Below, piece after piece: positions 8,680-56,202 of a stretch of 57,648 nt of DNA (positions are counted from its first letter, which is position 1; each line of letters opens with the position of its first letter). Location of the stretch: NCBI RefSeq assembly GCF_015062935.1, contig NZ_SUTM01000016.1, positions 1-57,648 of the forward strand. The letters run 5' to 3'. Source of the DNA: Methanobrevibacter sp. Lineage in GTDB: Archaea > Methanobacteriota > Methanobacteria > Methanobacteriales > Methanobacteriaceae. The position numbers were made by a program, and so were the translations under genes. The notes under the pieces were generated by a model, which saw only the letters and a list, made by a program, of their open reading frames with translations, had not been told where the DNA came from and did no database searches.

Positions 8680-8691
8680 CTTTAATTTTTT

Positions 8692-8757
8692 TATAACTAA
8701 TAACTTATAAGTTATAACTTATAACTAATAACTTATAAAAAAATAATAAATTATAAG
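8692..8757. repeat. cluster of AACTTATAAGTT-type palindromes
   Basis: Between two convergent genes, the intergenic DNA is made of TAACTTATAAGTTATAACTT-type units. It includes the exact 16-bp palindrome ATAAGTTATAACTTAT at 8707-8722. The same palindrome recurs at 18569 in the array in front of parA and at 30720 inside a flavoprotein gene. It is a candidate binding site for the chromosome-partitioning proteins encoded at 18.9-20.3 kb; part may simply serve as transcript end. Confidence 0.6.
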
Positions 8758-18535: not shown

Positions 18536-18564
18536 TCCTTCTTTATTTTTTTTTATATTTTTTT

Positions 18565-18922
18565 ACTTATAAGTTATAACTTATACTTTATAATTACTTA
18601 TAACTTATAACTTGCAAGTGTTAACTAATAACTTATTTGTGAAAACGAATAATTTATAAGATAGAAGTTATAAAATATAACTTATTTGTTAAAAGTTAGT
18701 TATGATAAGTTATTTCTTAAAACTTATTTTTTATAACTTTGAAGTTTTAACTTAAAACTTAATTCCTATCCCTTAGAAGTTAGAACTTAGAAGTTATTTC
18801 CTTTAAGTTTTAACAAAAAAGTAATAACTTAATCCTTTTAACTTATACTGGATAACTTACAAGTTATTCTTTAAAAAATATAATTTTTAAGTTATAAATC
18901 ATAACTGATAACTTAAAACTTA
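18565..18922. repeat. dense AACTT/AAGTT palindrome array upstream of parA
   Basis: About 360 bp between trpB2 and parA carry roughly 27 copies, counted by eye, of AACTT or its complement AAGTT, usually within TATAACTTATA or AAGTTATAACTT contexts. The exact 16-bp palindrome ATAAGTTATAACTTAT is at 18569-18584. Other dyads are AACTTACAAGTT (18855-18866) and TTAGAAGTTAGAACTTAGAA (18774-18793). No gene is seen. The position directly before parA is where bacterial and plasmid segregation systems keep their centromere or operator, so this is a candidate archaeal parS cluster. The parA promoter must lie in or at the end of this array. Confidence 0.75.
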
Positions 18923-18944
18923 TCAGAAATAGGAGAATTCTTTA

Positions 18945-19724
18945 ATGAGTGAAGTAATTGCGGTGATGAATCAAAAAGGGGGCTGTGGTAAGACAACTAC
19001 CGTTGTTAATACTGCAACATCTCTAGCGGTAATGGGAAAATCTGTTTTAGTTGTTGATATGGATCCTCAAGCTAATGCTACAACTAGTTTCGGGATTGAT
19101 AAAACTACAATAGAAAATACTATCTATGATGCTATCATAGGGGATATAAGTATTAAAAAAGCAACAATTCCTACGTTTATTAAAAATTTGTTTATTATCC
19201 CAAGTAATATATCCCTTAGTGGTGCCGGTATGGAGCTTTCTAGACGTGAAAATTATCATATAATTTTGAAAGAAACTCTAAAAGATGTAGTTCCATTATT
19301 CGATTATGTTTTCATCGATTTACCTCCTTCCCTAGGAGTCATAACAGTCAATGCATTAGTAGCTTCCGATAGTGTTCTGATACCTATCCAAGCTGAGTAT
19401 TATGCTCTTGAAGGAGTAGCTGATTTAATTAATACTATTCAATTAGTTGAAAAAAGACTCAGAAGTCCAACCCCAATTAAAGGAATTCTCCTAACTCTAT
19501 ATGATAAGAGAACCAGATTGAGCAAAGATGTTCACAAAGAACTCAAAAGTCACTTTGGTGAAAGCAATCTATTGTTTAAAACCATCATTCCAAGAAACAT
19601 TAGGCTGGCTGAAGCTCCAAGTTTTGGAAAACCTTGTCTGATTTATGATCCGGACAGTACAGGAACAAAAGCATATTTAAAATTGGCTAAAGAAATCTTA
19701 AAAAGAGACGAAGGTGATGACTAA
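18945..19724 (+). CDS. parA: ParA-family chromosome-partitioning ATPase
   Basis: A 259-residue ParA/Soj-type ATPase. The deviant Walker A is MNQKGGCGKTTTVVN (residues 8-22, with the signature lysine in KGG). Walker A' is VLVVDMDPQANAT (about 34-46), and Walker B is YVFIDLPPSLG (about 124-134). The C-terminal region with RNIRLAEAPSFGKP is typical of Soj. The stop codon overlaps the start of the next gene by one base, giving a two-gene operon. Direct neighbours are the partner-like gene downstream and the palindrome array upstream. An SD AGGAG precedes the ATG. Confidence 0.93.
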   Translation: MSEVIAVMNQKGGCGKTTTVVNTATSLAVMGKSVLVVDMDPQANATTSFGIDKTTIENTIYDAIIGDISIKKATIPTFIKNLFIIPSNISLSGAGMELSRRENYHIILKETLKDVVPLFDYVFIDLPPSLGVITVNALVASDSVLIPIQAEYYALEGVADLINTIQLVEKRLRSPTPIKGILLTLYDKRTRLSKDVHKELKSHFGESNLLFKTIIPRNIRLAEAPSFGKPCLIYDPDSTGTKAYLKLAKEILKRDEGDD

Positions 19725-20281
19725 TGCCTCGTAAAGGGCTTGGAAAAGGATTGGATTCTTTAATTCCTGATTTTTATGATGAGGATTTTGACAGCAATTC
19801 AACTCAGTCTCTAGAAGATATGCTGAATGAAAAAGAAGAACAGGATACTCCAAAAGAAGAGGAATCTGGTAAAGATAAGAATATATTCGAAGAGTTAGAG
19901 GATGACAGTGATGTTGAAGAAGATGATTCAACTACCGATGGAGAAGAAGAAATACCAGAAGAGGTACCAGAAGAGGAAGAACCAGAGGAAACTCAAGAGG
20001 ATGATAGCCCATCCGAAGACTCACCTGGCGATATGGGCAGTGAAGAGCCTGTACAAACATCACAAGAAATCCAAGTAAATCAAGCTCATGTAGATGAAGT
20101 CAAAGAGATTGTAAATAAGAATCCAAGGATTACACTTTGGTCTGCAAGGTCTTCAGCAGTATTCAGATACTTGCGTAAAACTGAACCGGAATTCAGTATT
20201 TCAAAAGAAGCTTCAACATTGATTGATGAGGCTGTCTCTAAAAAATATCCTGAAATATGGAAATTATTTGATGAATACTAA
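19724..20281 (+). CDS. ParB-tail-like ParA partner lacking the ParB core domain
   Basis: A 185-residue protein. Its first residues, MPRKGLGKGLDSLIPDF, match the N-terminus of chromosomal ParB, the peptide that stimulates ParA ATPase. The ParB CTPase and helix-turn-helix domains are absent. An acidic, Glu/Asp/Pro-rich linker (about residues 18-120) is followed by a C-terminal domain of about 65 residues, VDEVKEIVNKNPRITLWSAR through EASTLIDEAVSKKYPEIWKL, possibly DNA-binding or dimerising. It is translationally coupled to parA. The likely role is an archaeal adaptor that links DNA to ParA. The function is inferred from context. Confidence 0.8.
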   Translation: MPRKGLGKGLDSLIPDFYDEDFDSNSTQSLEDMLNEKEEQDTPKEEESGKDKNIFEELEDDSDVEEDDSTTDGEEEIPEEVPEEEEPEETQEDDSPSEDSPGDMGSEEPVQTSQEIQVNQAHVDEVKEIVNKNPRITLWSARSSAVFRYLRKTEPEFSISKEASTLIDEAVSKKYPEIWKLFDEY

Positions 20282-21793: not shown

Positions 21794-23890
21794 GTCAATG
21801 AAACAGTTACTTTGACTATTGTTACTAAAGCAGATGTATCCAATACTACAATCACTAGAGATGAAAATGTTTCATCTGATGTTTATGACCCTAATATGAG
21901 CAACAACAAGGACAGCAGTTCTGTTACTGTATTGCCTGAGGCTGATTTGGAAGTCATTAAAGGTGTTTCTGATGCTAGTGCTCATAAAGGTGATGCTGTG
22001 ATTGGACTATTACTGTTGTTAATCATGGTACTGATGCTGCTGTTAATGTAATTGTTACTGATGTATTGCCTAAGGAATTGATTAATCCTGGAAGTTATTA
22101 ATCTTGGCCATGCAGGTATCTTTGAAAACAATGTATGGACAATAGATGAAATTGCTAGCGGAGATAATGTGGTTTTAGTTATCAGAACTATTGTAGACGC
22201 TTCCAATGTTACCATTCCTAATGTTGTAAACGTTACTTCTGATATTTATGACCCTGACGAATCCAATAATAATGCTTCTAATAGTACTGAGATTCCTCCT
22301 GAGGCCGATTTGGAAGTTACAATTACCAATGATCATGAAACAACTCCTTGTCATAAAGGTGATGAGATTGTTTGGACTGTTGTTGTGACTAATCATGGTT
22401 CTGATGATGCTATTAACACTATTTTGGATGATGTCATTCCTGAAGGTCTGATTTATGTTAGTGATGATTCTAATGGAGCTTACAACAATGAGACTGGCAG
22501 ATGGACTATTGGTTATTTACCTGTTGATGATACTGTTACTTTGACTATTGTTACTAAAGCAGATGCGTCCAATACTACAATCACAAGGGATGAAAACGTT
22601 TCATCTGATGTCTATGATCCTAACAGGGGCAATAACAAGGACAGCAGTTCCGTTACTGTATTGCCTGAAGCTGACCTTGAGGTTACAATTACAAATGACC
22701 ATGAAACTGAACCTTGTCATAATGGTGATGAGGTTGTCTGGACTATTGTTGTGACTAATCACGGTCCTGACGGTGCTATAAACACAGTTCTAAAAGATAT
22801 TCTACCTGATGGATTAATATATGTATCTGATGATTCACAAGGCACTTACGATAATGAAAGCGCTGTTTGGACCATCGGTGACTTGCCTGTTGGAGATACC
22901 GTTACTTTAACTATCAAAACTAAAGTAAACACTTCAAATGCTACAATAACTAAAGATGTATCTGTCAGTTCAGATACTTACGATCCAAATTTAAGCAATA
23001 ATAAGGATAAAAGCTCTGTTGATGTCATCCCTGAAGCAGATTTAGAAGTTATTAAACTAGTTTCTGATAATGCTCCTTACAAAGGTGACACAATCACCTG
23101 GACTATAATTGTTGTTAACAATGGTAGGGATACTGCTGTAAATACAGTTGTAAAAGATAAACTGCCTTCCGGTTTAGTTTATGTTTCAGATGATTCAAAT
23201 GGCGCTTATAACCATGCTACCGGAATTTGGACCGTGGGTGATTTGGCTAATGGAGAATCTGCAACATTAAGCATTAAAACTTTAGTGAGTGTTACAAATA
23301 AAACAATTATTAACGTAGCGGATGCGGTCTCTGATACTTATGATCCTAATAAGGAAAATAATAAGGGAGATAATTCAACTAATGCTCATTCAGAGGTTGA
23401 CTTGGAAGTTAATGTAGTTCCTAAAGTTGAAACAGTGAATGTGGGAGATGAAGCCATATTTGAAGTCACTGTAATCAATCATGGACCGGATACTGCAGAA
23501 AACACCCGTGTATTTGTTACAATTCCTGATGAATTGAAACCTTTAGGATTTAAACCATCTAAAGGTACTTACGATCCAGATACAGGAAGATGGGATGTTG
23601 GAGACTTGGCTCCTGGTGAAGTAGCAACACTTTTAATTGATACAGTTGCATTAAAATCCGGAAACTTCATGATTACAGCACGCGCTGAATGTGATGGAAA
23701 CGAAACAGACTATTCCAAAAACTCTGATGGTAAAGGAATTGATGTAATTGTTTCCGAACCTGATGTAAAACATCCTAATAAAGATGTTCCACGGGTTCAT
23801 GCTACAATGCATGCTACAGGTAACCCAATAGTAATGGTTCTTTTAGCATTGCTCGCAATTGTTGGTACTACATTACGAAGAAAATTTTAA
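21794..23890 (+). pseudogene. 5'-truncated, frameshifted adhesin-like protein with DUF11 repeats
   Basis: The readable frame starts after a TAG at 21791 in mid-repeat (VNETVTLTIVTKADVS), without signal peptide or ribosome binding site. The frame breaks near 22000, where the expected WTITVVNHGTDAAVN continues in another frame, and again near 22095 (EVINLGHAGIFENN). From 22169 it stays open for 573 residues with about four to five DUF11 repeats (EADLEVTITNDHE...WTIGDLPVGDTVTL...SSDTYDPN). It ends in a hydrophobic anchor, IVMVLLALLAIVG, plus RRKF. It is the remnant of a cell-surface adhesin; only the distal part could still be translated. Confidence 0.85.
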
Positions 23891-25826: not shown

Positions 25827-27098
25827 ATGGAAATACTCAATTATTCAGAAATTGATTTGGCCCAAACCATTAAAAGATCAGAAGAAGATGTAAATAAGGT
25901 ATTAGATACAGTATCTGATATTTTAAACAATGTTAAAGTTAATAAAGATAAAGCTATTAGAGAATATACTGAAAAGTTTGACGGCGTTACAATAGAAAAT
26001 TTGAAAGTATCCAAAGATGAAATTAAAGAGGCCTATGATACTTTGGATGATGAACTGCTTGCAGCTTTAAAACAGGCAGCATCAAACATTGAAAAATTTC
26101 ATAAAAAACAGATTCCATCTGAATGGGAAATGGAAGTAAATCCTGGTATTGTTGCAGGTCAAATTGTAAGGCCAATCAACTCTGCTGGATGTTACATTCC
26201 AGGAGGACGCGCAGCTTATCCTTCATCAATACTGATGACAGTAATTCCTGCAAAAATCGCTGGTGTTGAAAAGGTCGTTTGTGTAACTCCACCTCAAAAG
26301 GATGGTAAAATTCTAGACGCTATTTTGGTTGCAGCTGATATTGCAGGTGCAGATGAAATATATAAGGTTGGTGGAGCACAGGCAATTGCCGGACTTGCTT
26401 ATGGTACCGAATCAATACCTCGAGTAGAAAAAATTGTTGGTCCGGGAAATATATTTGTTACTGCAGCAAAGAAATTAGTATATGGTCAAGTAGATATAGA
26501 GTTTCCGGCAGGTCCCTCAGAAGTATTGATTTTAGCTGATGAAACTGCAAACCCTGAATTTTTAGCAACTGACATTTTGGCACAGGCAGAACATGATCCT
26601 AATGCGTCATGCTTTTTGGTCACTGATTGTGAAGACTTGGCAGTTAAAACAGATGAGTTTGTAACCCAATTGACTGAGATTGCACCAAGGCGTGAAATTA
26701 TTGAAGAATCATTGTCAAAAAGTGGAAAAATCATTATCACTGACACATTTGAGGAAGCTATTCATGTTACAAATGAATATGCTCCTGAACATTTAATCAT
26801 AACCACAAAAGATGATGATGAAACATTATCACACATTAACAATGCAGGATCTATATTCTTAGGTTCATACTCACCTGTAGCAGCGGGAGATTACGGATCC
26901 GGAACAAACCATGTGCTGCCTACAGGAGGAGGAGCTAAAATGTATTCAGGCCTTTCAACTGAAGCATTTATCAAAAAGCCTACTGTTCAAAGATTGACCA
27001 GGGAAGGTCTTGAAGAGCTTTCAAAAACTTCAGTTCCTATAGCCGAATATGAAGGATTTTTTGCTCATGCAAATTCCTTTAAAACAAGATTAAAATAA
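25827..27098 (+). CDS. hisD: histidinol dehydrogenase
   Basis: A 423-residue HisD. It oxidises L-histidinol to L-histidine in two NAD-dependent steps. Characteristic segments are [39 protein letters not shown] (zinc histidine) and [18 protein letters not shown]. It follows ilvD after seven bases. A T-rich terminator-like stretch follows the stop. Confidence 0.97.
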
Positions 27099-30008: not shown

Positions 30009-31211
30009 ATGGAAGAATATGATATAGCTATTGTTGGCGGAGGACCTGCCGGAATAATGGCTGCAATTGCTGCAAGTCAAAGTTCCTCCAGTGTAATACT
30101 GCTTGAAAAGAACTCCTCACTGGGTCGCAAATTATTGTTGACAGGTGGAGGAAGATGCAATATCACAAACCTCAAGCCAATAAAAAAGCTATTGAATTTC
30201 TATCCTCAAAAAAACTTTTTAAAACACTCTTTTTTTACATTTACAAATGAAATGCTGCTGTCACTTTTTCAGGATAAGGGATTGGATTTCATTGAAGAGG
30301 ATGACAATAGAATTTTTCCTGAAACTGAAAAGGCAAGTGATATCTTAGAAGTTTTAACTGATTATTTGGATGATGTTATTATAAGTTATAACTTTGAAGT
30401 TAAAACAATAACAGATGATTTTGTTATAAATGATAAGTTAAAAGCCAAAAAGATAATAATCGCAACCGGAGGCGTTACCTATCCTCAAACCGGATGCAGT
30501 CCTAAAAACTATGCCTTAACTTCTCAGCCAGTAACAGACATTAAATATGGTTTGAGTCCATTGATTACCAAAAAAGATTTGTCTGACATTGCTGGTGTGA
30601 CTCTTTATGATGTTGTTATAAGTTATAAGAAATCAAAGGTAAATGGCAACGTTCTTTTTTCGCATGTCGGATTGACTGGTCCTGGAATTATTAACCTGAG
30701 CAATGAGATATCAGAAGGTATAAGTTATAACTTATTAGAGGATAATCCTGATGTTGATGTTGATATAGCTATTGACCTTTGTCCTGATTTTTCTCGTGAA
30801 GATCTTTTAGAGAAATTCAACAGCGATTTTCAATCTAAAGGAAAAACTATGATTAAAAATTACCTCAAAATGTATCTGACTAACAGTTTTATAGATTTCT
30901 TTTTGGATGAGATTAATCTTGACGGTGAAACTCAGCTCTCACGCATCAACAAAAAGAGCAAAAATCGTTTAATTGAAAATCTCAAAAGATTTACATTTGA
31001 AATAACCGGTTTTAATGGGAAACTTTCAAAAGTTACTGTTGGTGGTGTTGATTTAGCCAATATAAATCCCAAAACTATGGAATCCACATTAACACCTAAC
31101 CTGTATTTTGCTGGTGAAGTTATGGATTTGCATGGTCCTACCGGAGGATATAACTTAAAAATTGCATTTTCAACTGGTTATCTTGCAGGGTTGTCAGCAA
31201 GTGAAAAGTAA
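30009..31211 (+). CDS. BaiN/HI0933-family FAD-dependent oxidoreductase
   Basis: A 400-residue flavoprotein. The FAD dinucleotide-binding motif is VGGGPAGIMAAIAA (about residues 8-21), followed by GRKLLLTGGGRCNITN and the C-terminal AGEVMDLHGPTGGYNLKIAF. It belongs to the HI0933/BaiN group (often annotated aminoacetone oxidase family); the physiological reaction is unknown. The coding sequence contains several copies of the parA-array palindrome, for example at 30381, 30616 and 30720. The last cellular-type gene before the virus-type region. Confidence 0.88.
   Translation: MEEYDIAIVGGGPAGIMAAIAASQSSSSVILLEKNSSLGRKLLLTGGGRCNITNLKPIKKLLNFYPQKNFLKHSFFTFTNEMLLSLFQDKGLDFIEEDDNRIFPETEKASDILEVLTDYLDDVIISYNFEVKTITDDFVINDKLKAKKIIIATGGVTYPQTGCSPKNYALTSQPVTDIKYGLSPLITKKDLSDIAGVTLYDVVISYKKSKVNGNVLFSHVGLTGPGIINLSNEISEGISYNLLEDNPDVDVDIAIDLCPDFSREDLLEKFNSDFQSKGKTMIKNYLKMYLTNSFIDFFLDEINLDGETQLSRINKKSKNRLIENLKRFTFEITGFNGKLSKVTVGGVDLANINPKTMESTLTPNLYFAGEVMDLHGPTGGYNLKIAFSTGYLAGLSASEK
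30381..30735. repeat. parA-array palindromes inside a coding sequence
   Basis: ATAAGTTATAACTT at 30381-30394, TTATAAGTTATAAG at 30616-30629 and the complete 16-bp palindrome ATAAGTTATAACTTAT at 30720-30735 lie inside the flavoprotein gene. The last encodes ISYNL. The exact palindrome also occurs at 8707 and 18569. Bacterial parS sites also often lie within genes. Confidence 0.55.

Positions 31212-40253: not shown

Positions 40254-40254
<1 letters not shown>
39655..40254 (+). CDS. GT-A family glycosyltransferase-like protein
   Basis: A 199-residue protein. The N-terminal KILIAVPTFENIKPECF fits a nucleotide-sugar Rossmann start. YVLMIDSDVKVP (about residues 67-78) contains the DSD metal motif, and LSEDLYFCTEARKNG near the C-terminus is the usual ED catalytic segment of GT2-like enzymes. 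There is no membrane anchor. In an element with collagen-like and lectin-like fibres, it probably decorates virion proteins or alters host glycans (inference). It overlaps the neighbour on each side. A second Met at 39658 is an alternative start. Confidence 0.75.
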
Positions 40255-41189
<935 letters not shown>

Positions 41190-44460: not shown

Positions 44461-45141
44461 TCAATTATTTGAGAATATTGATGTATAATCAAGCATTAAA
44501 TGAATTATTTGGATATTTTTGTTATTGTAATTTCGTAATGCTGTTAATTTATAAACCTGTTCATAATCTTCATGTGGAGTGTTGTTAAGGGAAGATAAAT
44601 CATTTTCGTTTAATTTTTCATTAATTTTTAATATGATATCTTCCATGCTCCAGTTATTCTTGTATTCTTCGATAAAACATATCATGCCTGCAAAATTAGC
44701 CTTACTTGAATATTTACCCTCTAAAAATTCTAAAATACCATTTTCATAATAATTCTTATTAATGTCTAAATCATCACCAAATCGTTTACATTCAATGGTG
44801 TGGTAATATTTGTTAACAATTTTAATATCTCGTAAATTGCGATATTGAATTTTAATATCTAATAAACCTCTTTCCTTAACATTTTCTCTTCTTTCTTGAG
44901 GTTCACTATTTATTATTAAATTATTAAACCCATAATCCTCTTGAAGGGCAGTCATTGTGTCTACAAAATCATCTCTGTATTCATTTTCTCGTTTTCTAAT
45001 CATTTCTGATTTGAAATAGGTTTTAGTATTTAAAATTTTAAAATAAGTATGGATTGCTAAATTAATAAGTTTATTAAAATATTCTTCACTATCAAAATTA
45101 TCAAAGCGTTCAAAATATTTAAAATTGGAAGGATCTAACAT
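44461..45141 (-). CDS. PD-(D/E)XK restriction endonuclease subunit (putative)
   Basis: A 226-residue protein with the nuclease motif LLDIKI (Asp95) and TIECKR (Glu117-x-Lys119) separated by 22 residues, a good PD-(D/E)XK core. The start overlaps the stop of the DNA methyltransferase gene by one base, so they form a restriction-modification pair. The recognition sequence is unknown. It is oriented against the surrounding element genes. Confidence 0.75.
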   Translation of the reverse strand: MLDPSNFKYFERFDNFDSEEYFNKLINLAIHTYFKILNTKTYFKSEMIRKRENEYRDDFVDTMTALQEDYGFNNLIINSEPQERRENVKERGLLDIKIQYRNLRDIKIVNKYYHTIECKRFGDDLDINKNYYENGILEFLEGKYSSKANFAGMICFIEEYKNNWSMEDIILKINEKLNENDLSSLNNTPHEDYEQVYKLTALRNYNNKNIQIIHLMLDYTSIFSNN

Positions 45142-47975
45142 TATTCATCCTCCACGCCCATTAATGAGTTTGTAAATTCTATCAAATCTCTTCTAGCAAT
45201 AGCTCTGTGCCAATTTTTAAATTCATTGGATTTAATTACATAAAAAGAAGTTTCTTCAAAACCTTTAATGTCTTTTTGAACGAATAAGTTTTGTTTATCT
45301 TCAATACTTATGTCCCCAAAGAAATTTAATATTTCAGGTTTGTCTTTGTATTCAATTAAATGTTTTGGAGGTTCTTCGCTTATAATAAATCTAATTCCAA
45401 TAAATTGGTCTGATTTATAGCATTCAGCATGGAAATATTCATTATTCTCTTCTTTGAAATAATTTTTGAAATATTTAACAAAAACCATGATATAATCTTC
45501 TAAAATTTCATTTGAAACATTATGGTATACATTTTCTTTTTTACGCATTGGTAATGTAACATCAGTGAAATAATTAACTAAATCTTTTTCTAGTTCATTA
45601 AAGGATAATAAATCGAAAATTAATTCATCGATTTCATGTTGAATAATCTCTAAATATTCTGGATTATTACAATTTAGCATTTTATCAACATATTCAACTA
45701 AAGTATCATTAATAACTAATGGTATTTCTTCAATTTCTTTTAATAACATTATTTCTCTTTCAATACCTATTGTTGAAAAAGTTAAAAGAGATAAATATGA
45801 AAATAATTTTGAATTTAAAAATCCAAGTATTGACTTTAATAATTTTTCATCAGCATTTTTTCCATAAATTGAAATTACACTATTGGTAAACACCCATTGT
45901 TTTTCAGAGTATGTAGCAACACACTCTAAATTCTGTGTAAGTATCTGTTTAAATAAAACATAAGGTGGTGTAAATACTTCTTCTTTTCTAGGACGTTCGA
46001 CTTTTTCTATACTCCATTTCTCAACATGACTTTCATCAATATGATATCTCTGAAGCATTTGATGGGTTACATCCAAAAAGTCGTATTCAAAATATTTAGT
46101 CGCATCTTTAGTTTTATTACCAACCATAATTCCAAATGAACTATTTAAATCATATTTGTTAATATAATAACCTATATTCTTTTTAGAGTGTAATCTATTA
46201 ATTAATTGAAAATCTAAAGTATTTCCATAAACTAAAACTTTCCAAACCCAATCATGATTGTATAAATCTTTTTGCGATATATATTTAATATCTGATTTTT
46301 GTATTACAACTGATGATAATAAATAAAATAACTTATTTGGTTTAAGGGAAATATGTTTTATGTTTCCACAATTTACCATATTGGAATTATAGAATAATAT
46401 TGATCCCGGACCAATTGCATTGTTAAATATTTCTCTTCTTAGGGATGAAAACTCCAATACTTCAGTTAAATTAAAATTTTTTAAGAAGTATTTTCTAAAT
46501 GGTAAATCATTAAAGTTATATAAAATTTTACTTGTAACAATTAATGCAACATTAGTTGTTTCATTCATAAAATCATTAACTCTAAGTAAAAATGATTTGG
46601 CTATCTGTTTATTGGAATTAGGTAAATTTTTTTCTTTACAATATTCACTATGGGTTTTTTGTTGTTTTGATCCCCATGGAGGATTACCTACAATTAAATC
46701 AAAACCCTCTAAAGTGTTAAATAAACCCTTTAAATTGAAGAAGTCATCATTAAAAAAGTTTTTATTTATTAATTCTGGCATCTTAAAATGTTTAATTTCT
46801 TCAACATTCAAATAATCAAATAATGTTAACTGGATTGAAAGGAGAGTCATTTGAATTGCATCATTATCAATATCAATTCCATAGATATTTGATGTTAAAA
46901 TATCTTTTAATTCGTTAGGAGTTAGTTTAGATTTTAATTCTATATTTTTATCAATTATTCTTCTCAATGATTCAACTAAAAATACTCCAGAACCGCATGA
47001 GGGGTCTAAAATTTTACAACTAGTATTATTTTTTAATTTTTTATCTAATGTATTATTTAGTATATAATCTACTAAGAATAATGGTGTATATATGGCTTTT
47101 TGATCCTTTTTAGAATTATTATCCTGGAGAAATGCTTCATAGATATTGCTTATTAACTCAATAGGAATTATTTCAAAATCATATGGGCAATCAAGAACAG
47201 TTTGCTCAGGATTTTTCATGTCAAAACCACTGAATAATTTATGTAAATTTTTTAAATGTTTATCTGTGATTTTATTTTTTTGATTTTCAGTTAATTTAAA
47301 CAAATCTGGATTAAATTTTTCTTCAAGAGTGTTGAAAAACTTAAATAAACATTCTTTTTTTAGGATAACATTATTAAAGTTACAACCATAATTATTAATA
47401 AAAAATTCATCTTTACAAATGCCTCTGTCAATGAGATATTTTGAAAAGATTAATTTCCCAATTAAACTATGTATGATTTCTAAATCTAATTTGTCTTTCT
47501 TTAATAATTTGATTGTTATTTTAATATTTTCCAATAAGTAATTTTGAACTCTTTTTGAATTATTAAATGAATTGTGGTATTTATCAAAAAAAGTTCCATT
47601 AGCTAAGTTGTAAATATTAAAAATTTCTAAATCATCATCTTTTGAAAATTTACCTAAAAATGAATCCTCATCATCGAAAATATTGGAATTGTAAACTTGA
47701 ATTTCCTCTGGAAGGATAATAAATATTATTGGAACATCATTGAGATTCCAAATTCCTTTACGAAACTTTTTAATATCATCCGTAGAAAAGGTATCGTCGT
47801 ATTCTTTGAAGATAATTAATGGATTTTCATCTAAGATATAGATTGCATCATAGTCAATATATCTTAAAGAATTTTTGATACGTGAATTTATTTTTAAATC
47901 ATCTCCTTTTAAAAATAATCCATTATCTTTATTTAATTCAAGTTTATCCAACAAGTTTCTCAGAGAATCTTCCAT
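45141..47975 (-). CDS. adenine-specific DNA methyltransferase of a restriction-modification system
   Basis: A 944-residue protein. The N-terminal 280 residues resemble the helical or nuclease-like region of Eco57I-type enzymes, though no clear PD-(D/E)XK motif is seen. SAM-binding motif I is ILDPSCGSGVFL (322-333) and catalytic motif IV is GNPPW (430-434), giving N6-adenine specificity. The C-terminal half (about 480-800) is a likely target-recognition domain. Nuclease function is supplied by the coupled downstream gene. Very AT-rich, like its partner. It probably protects the host or element against other DNA. Confidence 0.85.
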   Translation of the reverse strand: MEDSLRNLLDKLELNKDNGLFLKGDDLKINSRIKNSLRYIDYDAIYILDENPLIIFKEYDDTFSTDDIKKFRKGIWNLNDVPIIFIILPEEIQVYNSNIFDDEDSFLGKFSKDDDLEIFNIYNLANGTFFDKYHNSFNNSKRVQNYLLENIKITIKLLKKDKLDLEIIHSLIGKLIFSKYLIDRGICKDEFFINNYGCNFNNVILKKECLFKFFNTLEEKFNPDLFKLTENQKNKITDKHLKNLHKLFSGFDMKNPEQTVLDCPYDFEIIPIELISNIYEAFLQDNNSKKDQKAIYTPLFLVDYILNNTLDKKLKNNTSCKILDPSCGSGVFLVESLRRIIDKNIELKSKLTPNELKDILTSNIYGIDIDNDAIQMTLLSIQLTLFDYLNVEEIKHFKMPELINKNFFNDDFFNLKGLFNTLEGFDLIVGNPPWGSKQQKTHSEYCKEKNLPNSNKQIAKSFLLRVNDFMNETTNVALIVTSKILYNFNDLPFRKYFLKNFNLTEVLEFSSLRREIFNNAIGPGSILFYNSNMVNCGNIKHISLKPNKLFYLLSSVVIQKSDIKYISQKDLYNHDWVWKVLVYGNTLDFQLINRLHSKKNIGYYINKYDLNSSFGIMVGNKTKDATKYFEYDFLDVTHQMLQRYHIDESHVEKWSIEKVERPRKEEVFTPPYVLFKQILTQNLECVATYSEKQWVFTNSVISIYGKNADEKLLKSILGFLNSKLFSYLSLLTFSTIGIEREIMLLKEIEEIPLVINDTLVEYVDKMLNCNNPEYLEIIQHEIDELIFDLLSFNELEKDLVNYFTDVTLPMRKKENVYHNVSNEILEDYIMVFVKYFKNYFKEENNEYFHAECYKSDQFIGIRFIISEEPPKHLIEYKDKPEILNFFGDISIEDKQNLFVQKDIKGFEETSFYVIKSNEFKNWHRAIARRDLIEFTNSLMGVEDE

Positions 47976-48793: not shown

Positions 48794-48986
48794 AATACAT
48801 TTTAATTAGATTTTCATAATTAAAAATTTATGATAGTATATAATCGTTATAAAGAATATATAGGGTATATTATTTGTTTAAACTTTTTTTTAGAAAATTT
48901 TCATACTTTATTTCCCATAATATAATATCTATTTTTATTAATCATGATGGACATAATTTAATATATATGTGAGTAAGGTGTTTTTA

Positions 48987-51965
48987 ATGATTGATTTTGA
49001 AACCAGTAAAAAACAAATCACAAGTCTTGTTGAAGAGTTTAAGACAAACGAACATATCTATAAAACTGTAGCTTTTGATGAGGAGAATACAAAAATTAAT
49101 TTCATCAACAAATTCTTTCAAGCTCTAGGTTGGGATGTAACAAATGAAGCAGGTGTTGCACCACAATTCAAGGATGTTGAATTTGAAGATACTGTTATTG
49201 TTGGTGGAAAACCTAAAGCTCCTGATTACTGCTTTAGAATTGGTGGGGCAAGAATATTTTTTGTAGAGGCCAAAAAGCCTAGTGTAGATATTGAACATGA
49301 CAGACGCTATGCATTTCAGCTTAAAAGATATACTTGGAGTGCACATTTGCCTTTAGGATTACTCACAGACTTTGAAGAGCTTGCAATATACGAACCTAAA
49401 ACAGCACCTAAAAAAACTCACAACACTAGCGTTGACAGAATCAAATATTACCATTACAGTGAATACGTTGACAACTGGGAAGAGATATATAATATCTTCT
49501 CTAAAGAAGCTGTACTAACTGGTAAATTTGATCAATATGTTAAAAACATTCATGGTGATAAAAAAGGAACATCTACTGTAGATTCAGAATTCTTAAAGAC
49601 TATTGAAGAGTGGAGATTGGAACTTGCAAAAAATATTGCGCTCAGAAATAAAGAATTAACAGTGGATGAATTAAACTTTGCAGTTCAACTAATAATCGAC
49701 CGTATAATATTTTTAAGAATAGCTGAAGACAGAGGAATAGAAAAATATGGTCAGCTAAAGAAATTAACTGAACTAGCAAGATATGAAAAAGATAACTATC
49801 CGGTTTATGAAGCTTTCATAGAATTGTGTAGGAAAGCTGATGCTAAATATAATTCTGGATTGTTTCATTTCACAGAAGAAAAAGACATTAGCTTAAGTGC
49901 AGATACACTGACTCCCAGTCTAAAAGTTGATGATGGTAAATTAAAAAAGATTATTGACGGATTATACTATCCCGATTGTCCTTATGAATTTAGTATGATT
50001 TCAACTGAAATTTTAGGAAATATTTATGAACAGTTCCTTGGAAAAGTAATTAGATTAACTGATGGCCATCAGGCTAAAGTTGAAGATAAACCTGAAGTTA
50101 AAAAAGCAGGAGGAGTATTCTATACTCCGCAATACATTGTTAATTACATTGTTGAAAATACTGTCGGTGAACTTCTGAAAGGAAAAACACCAAATAAAGT
50201 TTCTGAGTTAAGAATTGTTGATCCGGCATGTGGTTCAGGTAGTTTCTTATTGGGTGCCTATCAAAAGCTATTGGATTGGCATGTAGATTATTATTCTAAT
50301 CTAGATCAACCTCCAAAAAATGTAATCTACATAGGTAAAGATGGAATTCCTAAATTAACTATTCAGGAAAAGAAAAGAATTTTATTAAACAATATTTATG
50401 GTGTGGATATTGATTCTCAAGCTGTTGAAGTAACTAAATTAAGTTTACTTTTAAAAGTACTTGAAGATGAAAACAAAGATGTGTTAGAAGCTCAGCAGAA
50501 ATTAATACAAGAAAGAGCATTGCCTTATCTTGGAGATAATATCCGTTGTGGAAATAGTTTAATAGGCACTGATATTTTAGAACAACAGGATTTAACTGAT
50601 GATGAAGTATTTGAACTTAATCCTTTTGATTGGGAAATAGAGTTTTCTGATATATTTGAAACTGGAGGATTTGATGCTGTTATTGGAAATCCACCATATT
50701 TCAACATACAAACTCTGGGCGCCAATTCAAATTACTTTAATTATTTGAAAAATAATTATGAGATCTATATGGATAAAAGTGACATATTATTTTATTTCAT
50801 TTCTAAATCTAGTAAAATTTCAAAAGGTAAAATTGGATTTATCATATCCAATGCATTTCTGTTTTCAGATAAAGCAAAAAAATTAAGAAATTATATCTTA
50901 GATGATGTCCCTCTGGTCAAGATTGTTAATTTTGAAAAATATTTAGTATTTAATGCTGGAATTACAACTGCTATAACAATATTTGACAAAACCAAAAAAT
51001 ATTCTTCCACTAAAGCTTTAACTATACCTGAAAAAGATTTAGATAAAAAAGAGTTAATTAATATAATTAATGATGATGAATTATTTTTTAAAGTAAAATT
51101 TGATAAAAATAAAATATTTCCATTGATTAATGATAAGATAAAAAAATTCAATTCCAAGATAGATAGTACTCATGAAAAATTAGGTGATATCTGTTTAGTT
51201 GGTAAAGGAATGGAAACTGCAGCAGATAAAATTTTTTCATTTAAAGAATATCCGAAACAATTCCCTCCAGAATTTATTAAATTAAGAGTCACTGGAAAAA
51301 ATTCTGGAAGATATTTTATTAATGAAAATACTGATTTATTGTTATATTATGAATTTATTAATGATTTTAAAGAATTGCCTAATGAAATAAAAGAATATCT
51401 TAAATCTAATAGAGCTGCATTAAATAAGCGTGCTACAGTTAAAAATGAAGGAAGGCCTTGGTGGAAATATAGTAGGCCTATGCATAAAGAATTTTATAAT
51501 AAGCCTAAGCTATTTTGTAGTAGAAGAAATTCAATTAATGAATTTTCATATGATGGTGAATTTAAATATCTGAGTTTCTCAAATATGACTGTTATCTTCG
51601 ATACAAATGAAAATTTTGATTTAAAATATATTCTAGCATTATTAAACTCAAAATTATTAACATTTAGATATAGATCTTTAGGTAAACAAACTGGAAATGG
51701 TATTTATGAATATTTCCCTAATGGAATTTCCAAATTACCAATTCCTGTAATCCCAATTGAAGAACAAAAAGTATTTGTTGATTTGGCGGATAAAATGATT
51801 GAATTAAACAAAAAATTATCTGCTTGTAAAACTCCTAAAGAAAAAAGAATATTGGAAACACAATTAAATAAAACTGATGAAATAATAGACAAATTAGTTT
51901 ATGAGTTATATGAATTATCAGATGATGAAATTAATATTGTTGAAGAAACTGTAAGTGAATCTTAA
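48987..51965 (+). CDS. type IIG restriction-modification enzyme (Eco57I-like)
   Basis: About 992 residues from ATG 48987, selected because AAGGTG lies just before it; the frame extends to a GTG 18 bases upstream. The N-terminal nuclease core PDYCFRIGGARIFFVEAKKP has Asp80, Glu94 and Lys96. SAM motif I is IVDPACGSGSFLLG (about 410-423), motif IV is GNPPYF (about 566-571), and there is a long C-terminal target-recognition region with TaqI-like features, ending in a helical segment. It combines cleavage and adenine methylation in one chain. It is on the plus strand, opposite to the other locus. Confidence 0.88.
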   Translation: MIDFETSKKQITSLVEEFKTNEHIYKTVAFDEENTKINFINKFFQALGWDVTNEAGVAPQFKDVEFEDTVIVGGKPKAPDYCFRIGGARIFFVEAKKPSVDIEHDRRYAFQLKRYTWSAHLPLGLLTDFEELAIYEPKTAPKKTHNTSVDRIKYYHYSEYVDNWEEIYNIFSKEAVLTGKFDQYVKNIHGDKKGTSTVDSEFLKTIEEWRLELAKNIALRNKELTVDELNFAVQLIIDRIIFLRIAEDRGIEKYGQLKKLTELARYEKDNYPVYEAFIELCRKADAKYNSGLFHFTEEKDISLSADTLTPSLKVDDGKLKKIIDGLYYPDCPYEFSMISTEILGNIYEQFLGKVIRLTDGHQAKVEDKPEVKKAGGVFYTPQYIVNYIVENTVGELLKGKTPNKVSELRIVDPACGSGSFLLGAYQKLLDWHVDYYSNLDQPPKNVIYIGKDGIPKLTIQEKKRILLNNIYGVDIDSQAVEVTKLSLLLKVLEDENKDVLEAQQKLIQERALPYLGDNIRCGNSLIGTDILEQQDLTDDEVFELNPFDWEIEFSDIFETGGFDAVIGNPPYFNIQTLGANSNYFNYLKNNYEIYMDKSDILFYFISKSSKISKGKIGFIISNAFLFSDKAKKLRNYILDDVPLVKIVNFEKYLVFNAGITTAITIFDKTKKYSSTKALTIPEKDLDKKELINIINDDELFFKVKFDKNKIFPLINDKIKKFNSKIDSTHEKLGDICLVGKGMETAADKIFSFKEYPKQFPPEFIKLRVTGKNSGRYFINENTDLLLYYEFINDFKELPNEIKEYLKSNRAALNKRATVKNEGRPWWKYSRPMHKEFYNKPKLFCSRRNSINEFSYDGEFKYLSFSNMTVIFDTNENFDLKYILALLNSKLLTFRYRSLGKQTGNGIYEYFPNGISKLPIPVIPIEEQKVFVDLADKMIELNKKLSACKTPKEKRILETQLNKTDEIIDKLVYELYELSDDEINIVEETVSES

Positions 51966-53686: not shown

Positions 53687-53698
53687 GGAGGATTGTTA

Positions 53699-54625
53699 AT
53701 GTTAACCAAAGGAAATGATGCGAAAGTACAAAATGAAGTGATGGCACAGATTGTGGCCGATACTTCTGCAAAGTGGATGAAATTCACAAGATTATTGCCA
53801 AAGCAGGAAATTGAAGAGAACTCACAGTATTACACTTACATGTCTCAAAGGGTCAATATCGAGGAAGCCATTCAGTCAGGCGTTCTTGGTGAGGCAAAAG
53901 ATATTGCTCCTGGCGCAACACTTCAGGAATTAAACGTCAGAAAACCAATCAGCGAAACCATCTCTATTGACACTATAGGCGGAGTCCTAAACGTTTCCGC
54001 TCAAATGCTTGATTCCAATTTAATCTCCGTTAATGACATGCTGCAGGATGTAGGAATCCTCATCGGCAGAAGCATTGAAAAGGCAGCTATTGACATGATA
54101 ATGAATTCATCCAAAGTAGCTACCTACAACTTTGAAAGTGGTGATGATACTGGAATGACCATCTTAAAAGCTCAGGAAAAGTTCAAGGAATCCGCAGGAA
54201 GCTATGCTAACTTAAACAGTATGGCCGTAAGCTACAAGTCACTCACAACCCTGAAATCAGATATCTTTTCAAGCAACAGACAGGTCGAACCGGTAGAACT
54301 TATCAAAAGCTATTACGGTGTTGACAACATCGATATTTTAGGAACAGCAGTATGCGATGGCGGTTCCGAGATGGGTGACAAGACCTATGTCGGCATGGAC
54401 TACATCAACCCAGGAATGAAATTATTATACTCCAGAACTACCGGAACTACCGTTGCTCCGTTAGGACCTGACGGTGAGATGTATGATTTTTATCCGTTAA
54501 TCGAATTCATGAGAAAGGACATCAGGGATGAGTTGCCAATGTATACCAAACTCTTCATCCTGTCAAGCGTTGGAGTATTAATGAATGCACCTAACAGGAT
54601 AATCAAAGGTAATTTCAGAGCATAA
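53699..54625 (+). CDS. major capsid protein-like, copy 2
   Basis: A paralogue of about 308 residues, starting at ATG 53699 with SD AGGAGGA; this start gives MLTKGNDAKVQNEV, matching MITKGNDTKVQNEV of copy 1. Shared blocks include LGEAKDIAPG, TLQELNVRKPI, DTIGGVLNVS, LYSRTTGTTVAP and FYPLIEFMRKDIRDELPMYTK. The middle has diverged. Two capsid paralogues could build distinct shell positions, such as hexamers and pentamers, or one may be a minor or cell-variant form. Confidence 0.68.
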   Translation: MLTKGNDAKVQNEVMAQIVADTSAKWMKFTRLLPKQEIEENSQYYTYMSQRVNIEEAIQSGVLGEAKDIAPGATLQELNVRKPISETISIDTIGGVLNVSAQMLDSNLISVNDMLQDVGILIGRSIEKAAIDMIMNSSKVATYNFESGDDTGMTILKAQEKFKESAGSYANLNSMAVSYKSLTTLKSDIFSSNRQVEPVELIKSYYGVDNIDILGTAVCDGGSEMGDKTYVGMDYINPGMKLLYSRTTGTTVAPLGPDGEMYDFYPLIEFMRKDIRDELPMYTKLFILSSVGVLMNAPNRIIKGNFRA

Positions 54626-55392: not shown

Positions 55393-56202
55393 ATGATAGA
55401 AGATAATATTAGCTGGACAAGTTTTTGCCAGGCCATGAATTCAATTGCGTACTGGCTGGTTCAGAATAAAAAGAAGTATAAGAAGCGTGACTACTACCAG
55501 ATACTAACATTGAAAGGTAGCTGTGCAGATGTAGAAAAGAAAGCAAAGAAATTAGGTTCAGACAAGCTGGTTGCAATGTATACAATGGCAGCAATCAAAG
55601 ACAATACATCATTGGATTTCATTCCCAATTATGTGATGTTAAAGAACGGAACTAAAATAGATAAGGCAGAATATGTGGACATGGCCATAAGAGTGGAGGC
55701 ATACATCAGGGCAAACGGAAGGCTTCCAGCTATTGTCTACAGGAAATCAACACTGCCGGACTATAAGGATTCCACAATGAAGCTGTTTGTGAAAACATTC
55801 AACTTCAAGGGAAACACCATCGATGAGGCTTTAGCTATTATCTCCAAGGTAAAGTTATACCTGAAATATTTCGATTCACAAAAGACTGACAAGAAAACAA
55901 TAACAGACGCTAAAGCCGGCAAGGGTTCCAACTGCGTGGACTGGGGACAAGTATATTACCGCATAGCAAAATCATTAGGCTATGATGTACAGTTTGTCCA
56001 TGTTAAATGTCGTGTAAGTGGAACAGGCCATATCAGATTAAGGCTGAGACATTCCAAACATACATCCGGAAACTGGATCAACCGTGACCCTGCAGCAGTA
56101 GCAGATACAACTTCAGGAAATGTTAGATCCATCTGGTGTGAAGATGGAAACATTATAGCATATGATCCATCCTGGATATTCACAGATTTATATAGCAGTT
56201 AA
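55393..56202 (+). CDS. pseudomurein endoisopeptidase (peptidase C71, Pei-like)
   Basis: A 269-residue protein. The catalytic triad of C71 peptidases (Cys181 in GSNCVDWGQ, His213 in GTGHIRLRL, Asp232 in INRDPAAVAD) lies in a transglutaminase-like fold. Residues about 95-117 (YVDMAIRVEAYIRANGRLPAIV) look like a pseudomurein-binding repeat. The family cleaves the epsilon-Ala-Lys isopeptide bond of pseudomurein crosslinks. There is no signal peptide, so export would need a holin-like partner, plausibly the protein at 39114. It is the lysis enzyme of the element, similar in role to PeiW, PeiP and PeiR. Confidence 0.88.
   Translation: MIEDNISWTSFCQAMNSIAYWLVQNKKKYKKRDYYQILTLKGSCADVEKKAKKLGSDKLVAMYTMAAIKDNTSLDFIPNYVMLKNGTKIDKAEYVDMAIRVEAYIRANGRLPAIVYRKSTLPDYKDSTMKLFVKTFNFKGNTIDEALAIISKVKLYLKYFDSQKTDKKTITDAKAGKGSNCVDWGQVYYRIAKSLGYDVQFVHVKCRVSGTGHIRLRLRHSKHTSGNWINRDPAAVADTTSGNVRSIWCEDGNIIAYDPSWIFTDLYSS

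Follow-up and report, generated by a model that had tools for sequence, protein, structure and literature searches.

The window, i.e., the whole analysed stretch of 57,648 nucleotides of contig NZ_SUTM01000016.1 from Methanobrevibacter sp., was found to contain two genes overlapping by one base and preceded by a long repeat array (Table 1). The first gene, segA, encodes a ParA-type ATPase with a deviant Walker A motif (KGGCGKT) and was present at all 32 loci examined in relatives. The best solved relatives of SegA were bacterial ParA/Soj proteins and, with 242 bits to the closest solved structure (8ray) and only 64 bits to S. solfataricus SegA (7dut), the protein was far nearer to the bacterial ATPases than to its S. 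solfataricus namesake. The 8ray structure was taken to be ParA of M. xanthus. Its length and the position of its D-to-A substitution fit the M. xanthus ParA21-274-D60A (PMC12462528).

Table 1. Coordinates of the segAB genes, their domains, the upstream array and the secondary heptad clusters in the window.
Feature	Position	Strand	Basis or remark
Secondary heptad cluster, convergent gap HAD hydrolase/xylose-isomerase-like TIM barrel	8686..8741	.	Score 30.6, best in window
Whole heptad array, candidate SegB centromere and operator	18555..18928	.	Heptad-array scan, ~374 bp
5' short block, different register	18565..18582	.	Cores 18571, 18578
Main block of the array, 46 contiguous heptads sharing a register	18600..18921	.	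AACTT/AAGTT orientations mixed
Candidate segA TATA box (TTTATAAG), within array	18653..18660	+	Read from sequence, putative
segA, Soj-type ParA ATPase, 259 aa	18945..19724	+	Pfam AAA_31, E 2.2e-62
segB, SegB-type adaptor, 185 aa	19724..20281	+	Match to SegB 7duv/7dv2
ParA-binding box of segB, LGKGLDSLI, residues 6-14	19739..19765	+	Conserved; M. xanthus ParB spacing
Acidic, poorly conserved linker of segB	19769..20068	+	Mean pLDDT ~43-50, residues 41-110
SegB ribbon-helix-helix domain (DNA-binding, dimerising), residues 120-182	20081..20269	+	Profile match
Secondary heptad cluster, HI0933-like FAD oxidoreductase gene	30340..30408	.	Score 21.7; TTATAAGTTATAA at 30379
Exact TTATAAGTTATAA, HI0933-like FAD oxidoreductase gene	30616..30628	.	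Second of the three sites in this gene
Heptad cluster, HI0933-like FAD oxidoreductase gene	30713..30740	.	Score 20.8; TTATAAGTTATAA-like site at 30719

The product of the second gene, segB, was regarded in the preliminary description as an adaptor devoid of the ParB CTPase and helix-turn-helix domains, with an acidic linker and a novel C-terminal domain. In accordance with the first of these claims, the search of Pfam and NCBIfam returned no family match for this protein, neither a CTPase (ParB/Srx) nor a helix-turn-helix family among them, and no canonical ParB was found over the cut-off in eight genomes. The acidic linker was also confirmed. It was predicted to be disordered and its length varied from nearly none in Methanothermobacter-like SegB to more than 100 residues. 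The novelty of the C-terminal domain did not hold, as this part of the protein matched the solved SegB of S. solfataricus (7duv/7dv2) with an E of 3.5e-5 when a single sequence was used (phmmer), and the profile search gave an E of 8.5e-13 to 7duv over 95 positions and 4.8e-10 to 7dv2. When the model of the C-terminal domain was compared with PDB folds, SegB chains took ranks 1, 2, 4 and 5, with E values of only 1.1-3.3 and a TM of about 0.5, as may be the case when a single chain of an intertwined dimer is compared; since such E values are not significant alone, the fold search lent weak support to the SegB identity. The full-length SegB model had a mean pLDDT of 60.8 and its fold matches were meaningless.

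SegB is known as a ribbon-helix-helix (RHH) centromere-binding protein (PMC12284271; PMC9178275). Judged from the sequence, the C-terminal domain of the second protein is that of SegB, the archaeal RHH centromere protein, and the gene pair thus corresponds to segAB; SegB homology and gene order together identify the system as SegAB. The AAA_31/ParA match of the first protein and the SegB homology of the second one supported the earlier assignment of the locus to an archaeal segregation module with ParA. The module could not be retained as an undescribed type, because segAB had already been reported as widespread in Euryarchaeota (PMC12284271; PMC5120986).

The N-terminus of SegB, GLGKGLDSLIP, had been noticed as the ParA-stimulating N-terminus of ParB and was indeed present. 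The box fits the N-terminal ParA-binding motif L-x3-L-x2-L-[LI], and its residues L6, L10, L13 and I14 were invariant among 34 aligned sequences of relatives. The ParB of M. xanthus binds ParA via L11, L15, L18 and I19, each of which is needed (PMC12462528), and the spacing of the four SegB residues is identical. On the side of the ATPase, the M. xanthus ParA pocket residues V116, L150, L152, L155, L187 and L192 have their counterparts in M96, L130, V132, V135, L167 and L172 of SegA, all six of them hydrophobic. Methanothermobacter-like SegB has Met at the box position where a positive charge would be expected. Whereas the box is complete in the SegB studied here, the Sulfolobales SegB N-terminus (MSELDFLL) contains only the second half (LDxLL) of the ParB-type box. 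The search of the PDB with the N-terminal 34 residues of SegB gave no ParB match, the peptide being probably too short. The coexistence of a bacterial-type ParA and a ParB box with a second protein lacking any Pfam or NCBIfam match might also be explained, as in the preliminary description, by a novel family of ParA adaptors with an unrelated DNA-binding domain. In view of the profile match to the solved SegB and, to a lesser degree, the SegB chains at the top of the fold search, this possibility was considered highly improbable.

Upstream of segA, 25 AASTT cores (AACTT or AAGTT) were identified at 18571-18921. Local shuffles of the same 400 bp contained on average 2.1 such cores and at most seven (2000 trials), and other 400-bp stretches of the window, away from the array, never had more than 8-9. 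The preliminary description referred to this region as an array of AACTT/AAGTT dyads, about 27 by eye. The array was confirmed but not its dyad structure, since 23 of the 25 cores belonged to a single phase modulo 7 (binomial P ~6e-17), which indicated a single array of 7-bp heptads in mixed orientation instead of separate palindromes. AACTT and AAGTT, being reverse complements with a common centre, occupy the same register, which explains the dyadic look of the region to the eye. The two off-phase cores of the 5' block were 7 bp apart from each other, and for periods other than 7 the dominant-phase fractions were 0.16-0.24. In the heptad-array scan, the main array had a score of 24.7, compared with a maximum of 17.1 in 10 whole-window shuffles.

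In the fixed register of the main block, the heptads had the consensus A-W-A-A-S-T-T, with WWAASTT in either orientation as the unit. The heptad centre was C or G in 37 of the 46 heptads and the mean match reached 5.6 of seven positions versus 3.0 expected from composition. The C-centred and G-centred heptads were intermixed and several of them were degenerate. The array was about 80% AT. A further heptad-rich stretch, with an internal duplication, was noticed on contig 26 of the same genome (G000, 26841-27007; 1342-1508 of L069).

The array is located directly upstream of segA and a TATA-like element lies inside it, in a block that was well conserved both in the alignment and at the loci of relatives. 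The short array of Methanothermobacter-like genomes likewise overlaps the promoter region, and a repressor role is common among RHH proteins. Such an arrangement would fit an array that acts as an operator only, through which SegB or another regulator controls segAB transcription, with no centromere role. This restricted role was judged unlikely, as 46 heptads far exceed the needs of an operator and the distribution of the secondary sites (see below) also speaks against it. The operator and centromere roles are compatible and can coexist.

Among the 152 genomes of the phylum, SegB was detected in 136, and each of the 20 genera was represented; no SegB match was obtained from three genomes of the same genus (G006, G019 and G024), the completeness of which was 92-99%. 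An uncontrolled search of 23 genomes from another archaeal phylum (centre G038) yielded no SegB. None of the 20 other same-genus loci that were examined lacked a phased array, the number of cores per 450 bp being 11-27. With a minimum of six cores, half or more of them in one phase, as the criterion, the array was also recognised in 57 of the 64 named loci whose upstream sequence was long enough, and the mean dominant-phase fraction was 0.79 at period 7 versus 0.19-0.31 at periods 5, 6 and 8-12. The survey of Methanobacteriales proposed earlier therefore showed that both the gene pair and the array are kept across the order. Phased AT-rich arrays were retained in several other genera of the family, and Methanothermobacter-like genomes (~46% GC in this stretch) had short arrays with 5-7 cores of the heptad unit. 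In g18-g23, taken to include Methanobacterium, the arrays were short or irregular, some of them with only two or three heptads, and in the class-level outlier (G037) segAB was present with no heptad array.

Outside these groups, a SegB with a full ParB-type box (KKLGKGLDALI) accompanied by a ParA gene was encountered in an Archaeoglobaceae MAG (L146), at a locus with no clear heptad array. SegB-like RHH proteins were also noticed at loci of Thermoproteota, seemingly outside Sulfolobales (L207, L209-L215, L217-L220, L222 and L224), where no ParA P-loop was found just upstream; these proteins are possibly stand-alone relatives of SegB.

Among the gaps between the arrays of relatives, 7, 14 and 21 bp were overrepresented compared with the neighbouring lengths (435 pairwise gaps of 7 bp versus 155 of 6 bp and 115 of 8 bp, the pairs being non-independent). 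The same enrichment would also be expected from slippage of units and, with the high AT content of the array, it fits the gain and loss of units in a functionless low-complexity tandem repeat. Such an origin of the array was found hardly credible, because the diverged units stay in register at the 20 other same-genus loci and most of the named ones, and because short arrays persist in Methanothermobacter-like genomes in spite of their higher GC content. In these genomes, the search for TTATAASTTATAA with up to one mismatch gave 12-18 site matches versus 3-4 for control patterns. Moreover, a satellite of the array is conserved by position, as described below.

Nearness to the replication origin, which the preliminary description had listed for checking, was confirmed in relatives. 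The distance between segB and the best orc1/cdc6 gene was 9-85 kb in 14 of 15 genomes, these genomes being related and the distances thus non-independent. As orc1 lies on another contig in the genome studied here, its own origin distance was extrapolated from these relatives. The exception was the complete genome G026, with segAB 309 kb from orc1; there, a heptad cluster was detected about 4 kb from orc1 and an array stayed with segAB. AT-rich repeats 9-85 kb from orc1 could be taken for replication-origin elements, either Orc1/Cdc6 (ORB) boxes or iterons. This candidate was set aside as very unlikely because an array stays with segA even where orc1 is far away, as in G026, and because the largest array adjoins segAB and not orc1. 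The initiator boxes of archaeal origins have been described as part of the origin and close to the gene of the initiator (PMC4010727). The heptad unit is also built like the known SegB site.

The highest-scoring heptad cluster of the window lay between the HAD hydrolase and xylose-isomerase-like genes, which are convergent, and it recurred in the same intergenic gap, with differing flanks, in six relatives (L073, L074, L080, L081, L087 and L091). A site between convergent gene ends is promoterless and not easily an operator, and its retention in six relatives argues against a mere operator function of the heptads. A second cluster (30340-30408) had the same gene position in two relatives (L089 and L092). 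It belongs to the HI0933-like FAD oxidoreductase gene (30009-31211), in the coding sequence of which three TTATAAGTTATAA-like sites were found (30379, 30616 and 30719); the sites in this gene may be SegB sites or may reflect coding or codon constraint. In AT-rich Methanobrevibacter genomes, the counts of the triple-heptad pattern were near those of the reversed-pattern control, so the satellites of this genus were defined on the basis of scored clusters and conserved position.

In the Methanothermobacter-like genome G035, clusters, defined as two or more overlapping sites, were detected at +8.7, +17, +40 (segAB), +59 and +85 kb from orc1. G031 and G036 had matching subsets of these clusters, and in G034, in which orc1 was not placed, the clusters had the same spacing. 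In the three genomes with orc1 placed, the clusters were confined to one side of this gene and never lay more than about 90 kb away from it, and this concentration near orc1 is a further point against a role restricted to the operator. Further heptad clusters of the Methanobacterium-like g18 were scattered and not origin-bound, which indicates that the origin restriction is not universal.

For SegB of Sulfolobus, the consensus obtained in vivo by ChIP reads TCTAGA-S-TCTAGA around a central S (PMC12284271), and the array described here can be written as (TTATAA-S)n. Length, palindromy, the 7-bp half-site spacing and the central S agree between the two sites, whereas only 5 of 13 letters are identical, the core being AA-S-TT and not AGA-S-TCT. 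Because the published core is not matched letter for letter, the array should be considered a putative SegB site. The 13-bp Sulfolobus site might be viewed as two heptads sharing a centre, the unit being polymerised in the present array. The SegAB system of S. solfataricus resembles the one studied here in gene order and overlap, in the homologous C-terminal domain of SegB, in a site upstream of segA with 7-bp spacing and central S and in the presence of more chromosomal sites. It differs in having two or three isolated 13-bp upstream sites where Methanobrevibacter has its contiguous heptads of other bases; at the Sulfolobales loci, isolated AGA-S-TCT sites and no heptad arrays were seen. Sulfolobus SegB bridges distant sites (PMC12284271), and SegB has been reviewed as wrapping DNA in a superhelix, like omega (PMC9178275).

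The delta/omega system of pSM19035 is similar in its RHH adaptor with a ParA partner and in its contiguous 7-bp heptads, direct and inverted, which overlap the promoters of partition genes. The omega protein (RHH) acts on 7-bp heptads and at least four contiguous ones are needed for the activation of ParA ATPase (PMC9499535). The contiguous heptads number 7-10 in pSM19035 and 46 in the array described here. The latter is chromosomal and not plasmid-borne, and the plasmid heptad is WATCACW, not WWAASTT. The PDB sequence search with SegB returned SegB and no omega entry, thus giving no evidence of homology between the two adaptors, and omega has no ParB-type box. According to PMC12462528, the chromosomal motif is absent from the ParB partners of plasmid ParAs of this kind. 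With bacterial ParABS (Soj/Spo0J/parS), the module shares the Soj-type ATPase, the ParB-type ParA-binding box and sites clustered near the origin, but the bacterial ParB clamp is loaded at parS, whereas an RHH adaptor, with no CTPase or helix-turn-helix domain found, would act here on a repeat array. The AspA-ParB-ParA system of pNOB8 is also an archaeal segregation system with an adaptor spreading along DNA (PMC5120986). It consists of three proteins, including the winged-helix AspA, and no relation to the segAB studied here was found.

Taken as a whole, the locus is quite probably a chromosomal SegAB segregation module of Methanobrevibacter with a polymeric SegB centromere. As had been proposed, the C-terminal domain is the likely binder of the array, judging from its homology. 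SegB dimers would be bound next to one another on the heptads via this RHH domain and could coat about 320 bp as a continuous nucleoprotein filament, for which the plasmid omega/delta system offers, by analogy, the best working model. The flexible acidic linkers would display many N-terminal ParB-type boxes, which may engage SegA-ATP and stimulate its ATPase activity, and hydrolysis by SegA would move the origin region. The secondary heptad clusters near the origin may also recruit SegB and be bridged to the main array. Repression of the segAB operon by SegB itself is probable as well, given that the likely segA promoter lies within the array.

A broader formulation, which we favour with somewhat less confidence, extends this scheme to Methanobacteriales. 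The order would possess a polymeric near-origin centromere, on which a SegB filament of dozens of dimers, together with positionally conserved satellites, drives a Soj-type ATPase via a ParB-type peptide. Parts of ParABS would thus be combined with an RHH adaptor in a design that converged on, or shares ancestry with, the plasmid omega/heptad one.

Chromosome segregation in Euryarchaeota and the form of the centromere have been listed among open questions (PMC5120986). In the 2025 mapping of Sulfolobus SegB sites, none was reported near segAB in the sole euryarchaeon included, Thermococcus sibiricus, and it was suggested that the SegB motif is degenerate in that lineage (PMC12284271). New here are a DNA site of this form and a SegB equipped with a ParB box; no description of either, nor of such a centromere in methanogens, was found in the literature searched, which took in few subscription journals. 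The heptad array provides a testable candidate centromere across the whole order, including the methanogens of human gut and rumen and Methanothermobacter, and it links SegAB, bacterial ParABS and plasmid omega heptads, which have so far been treated separately.

Downstream of segAB, two other regions of the window attracted attention. Extracellular-type ORFs with near-identical repeats were located at 21812-23890 and are probably parts of a frame-broken adhesin-like gene. A provirus-like block was recognised at 31431-56202, with a collagen-like tail fibre (40254-41189), two large methylase/restriction-type ORFs (45141-47975 and 48969-51965), a Phage_capsid_4 protein (53693-54625) and a pseudomurein endoisopeptidase (55393-56202).
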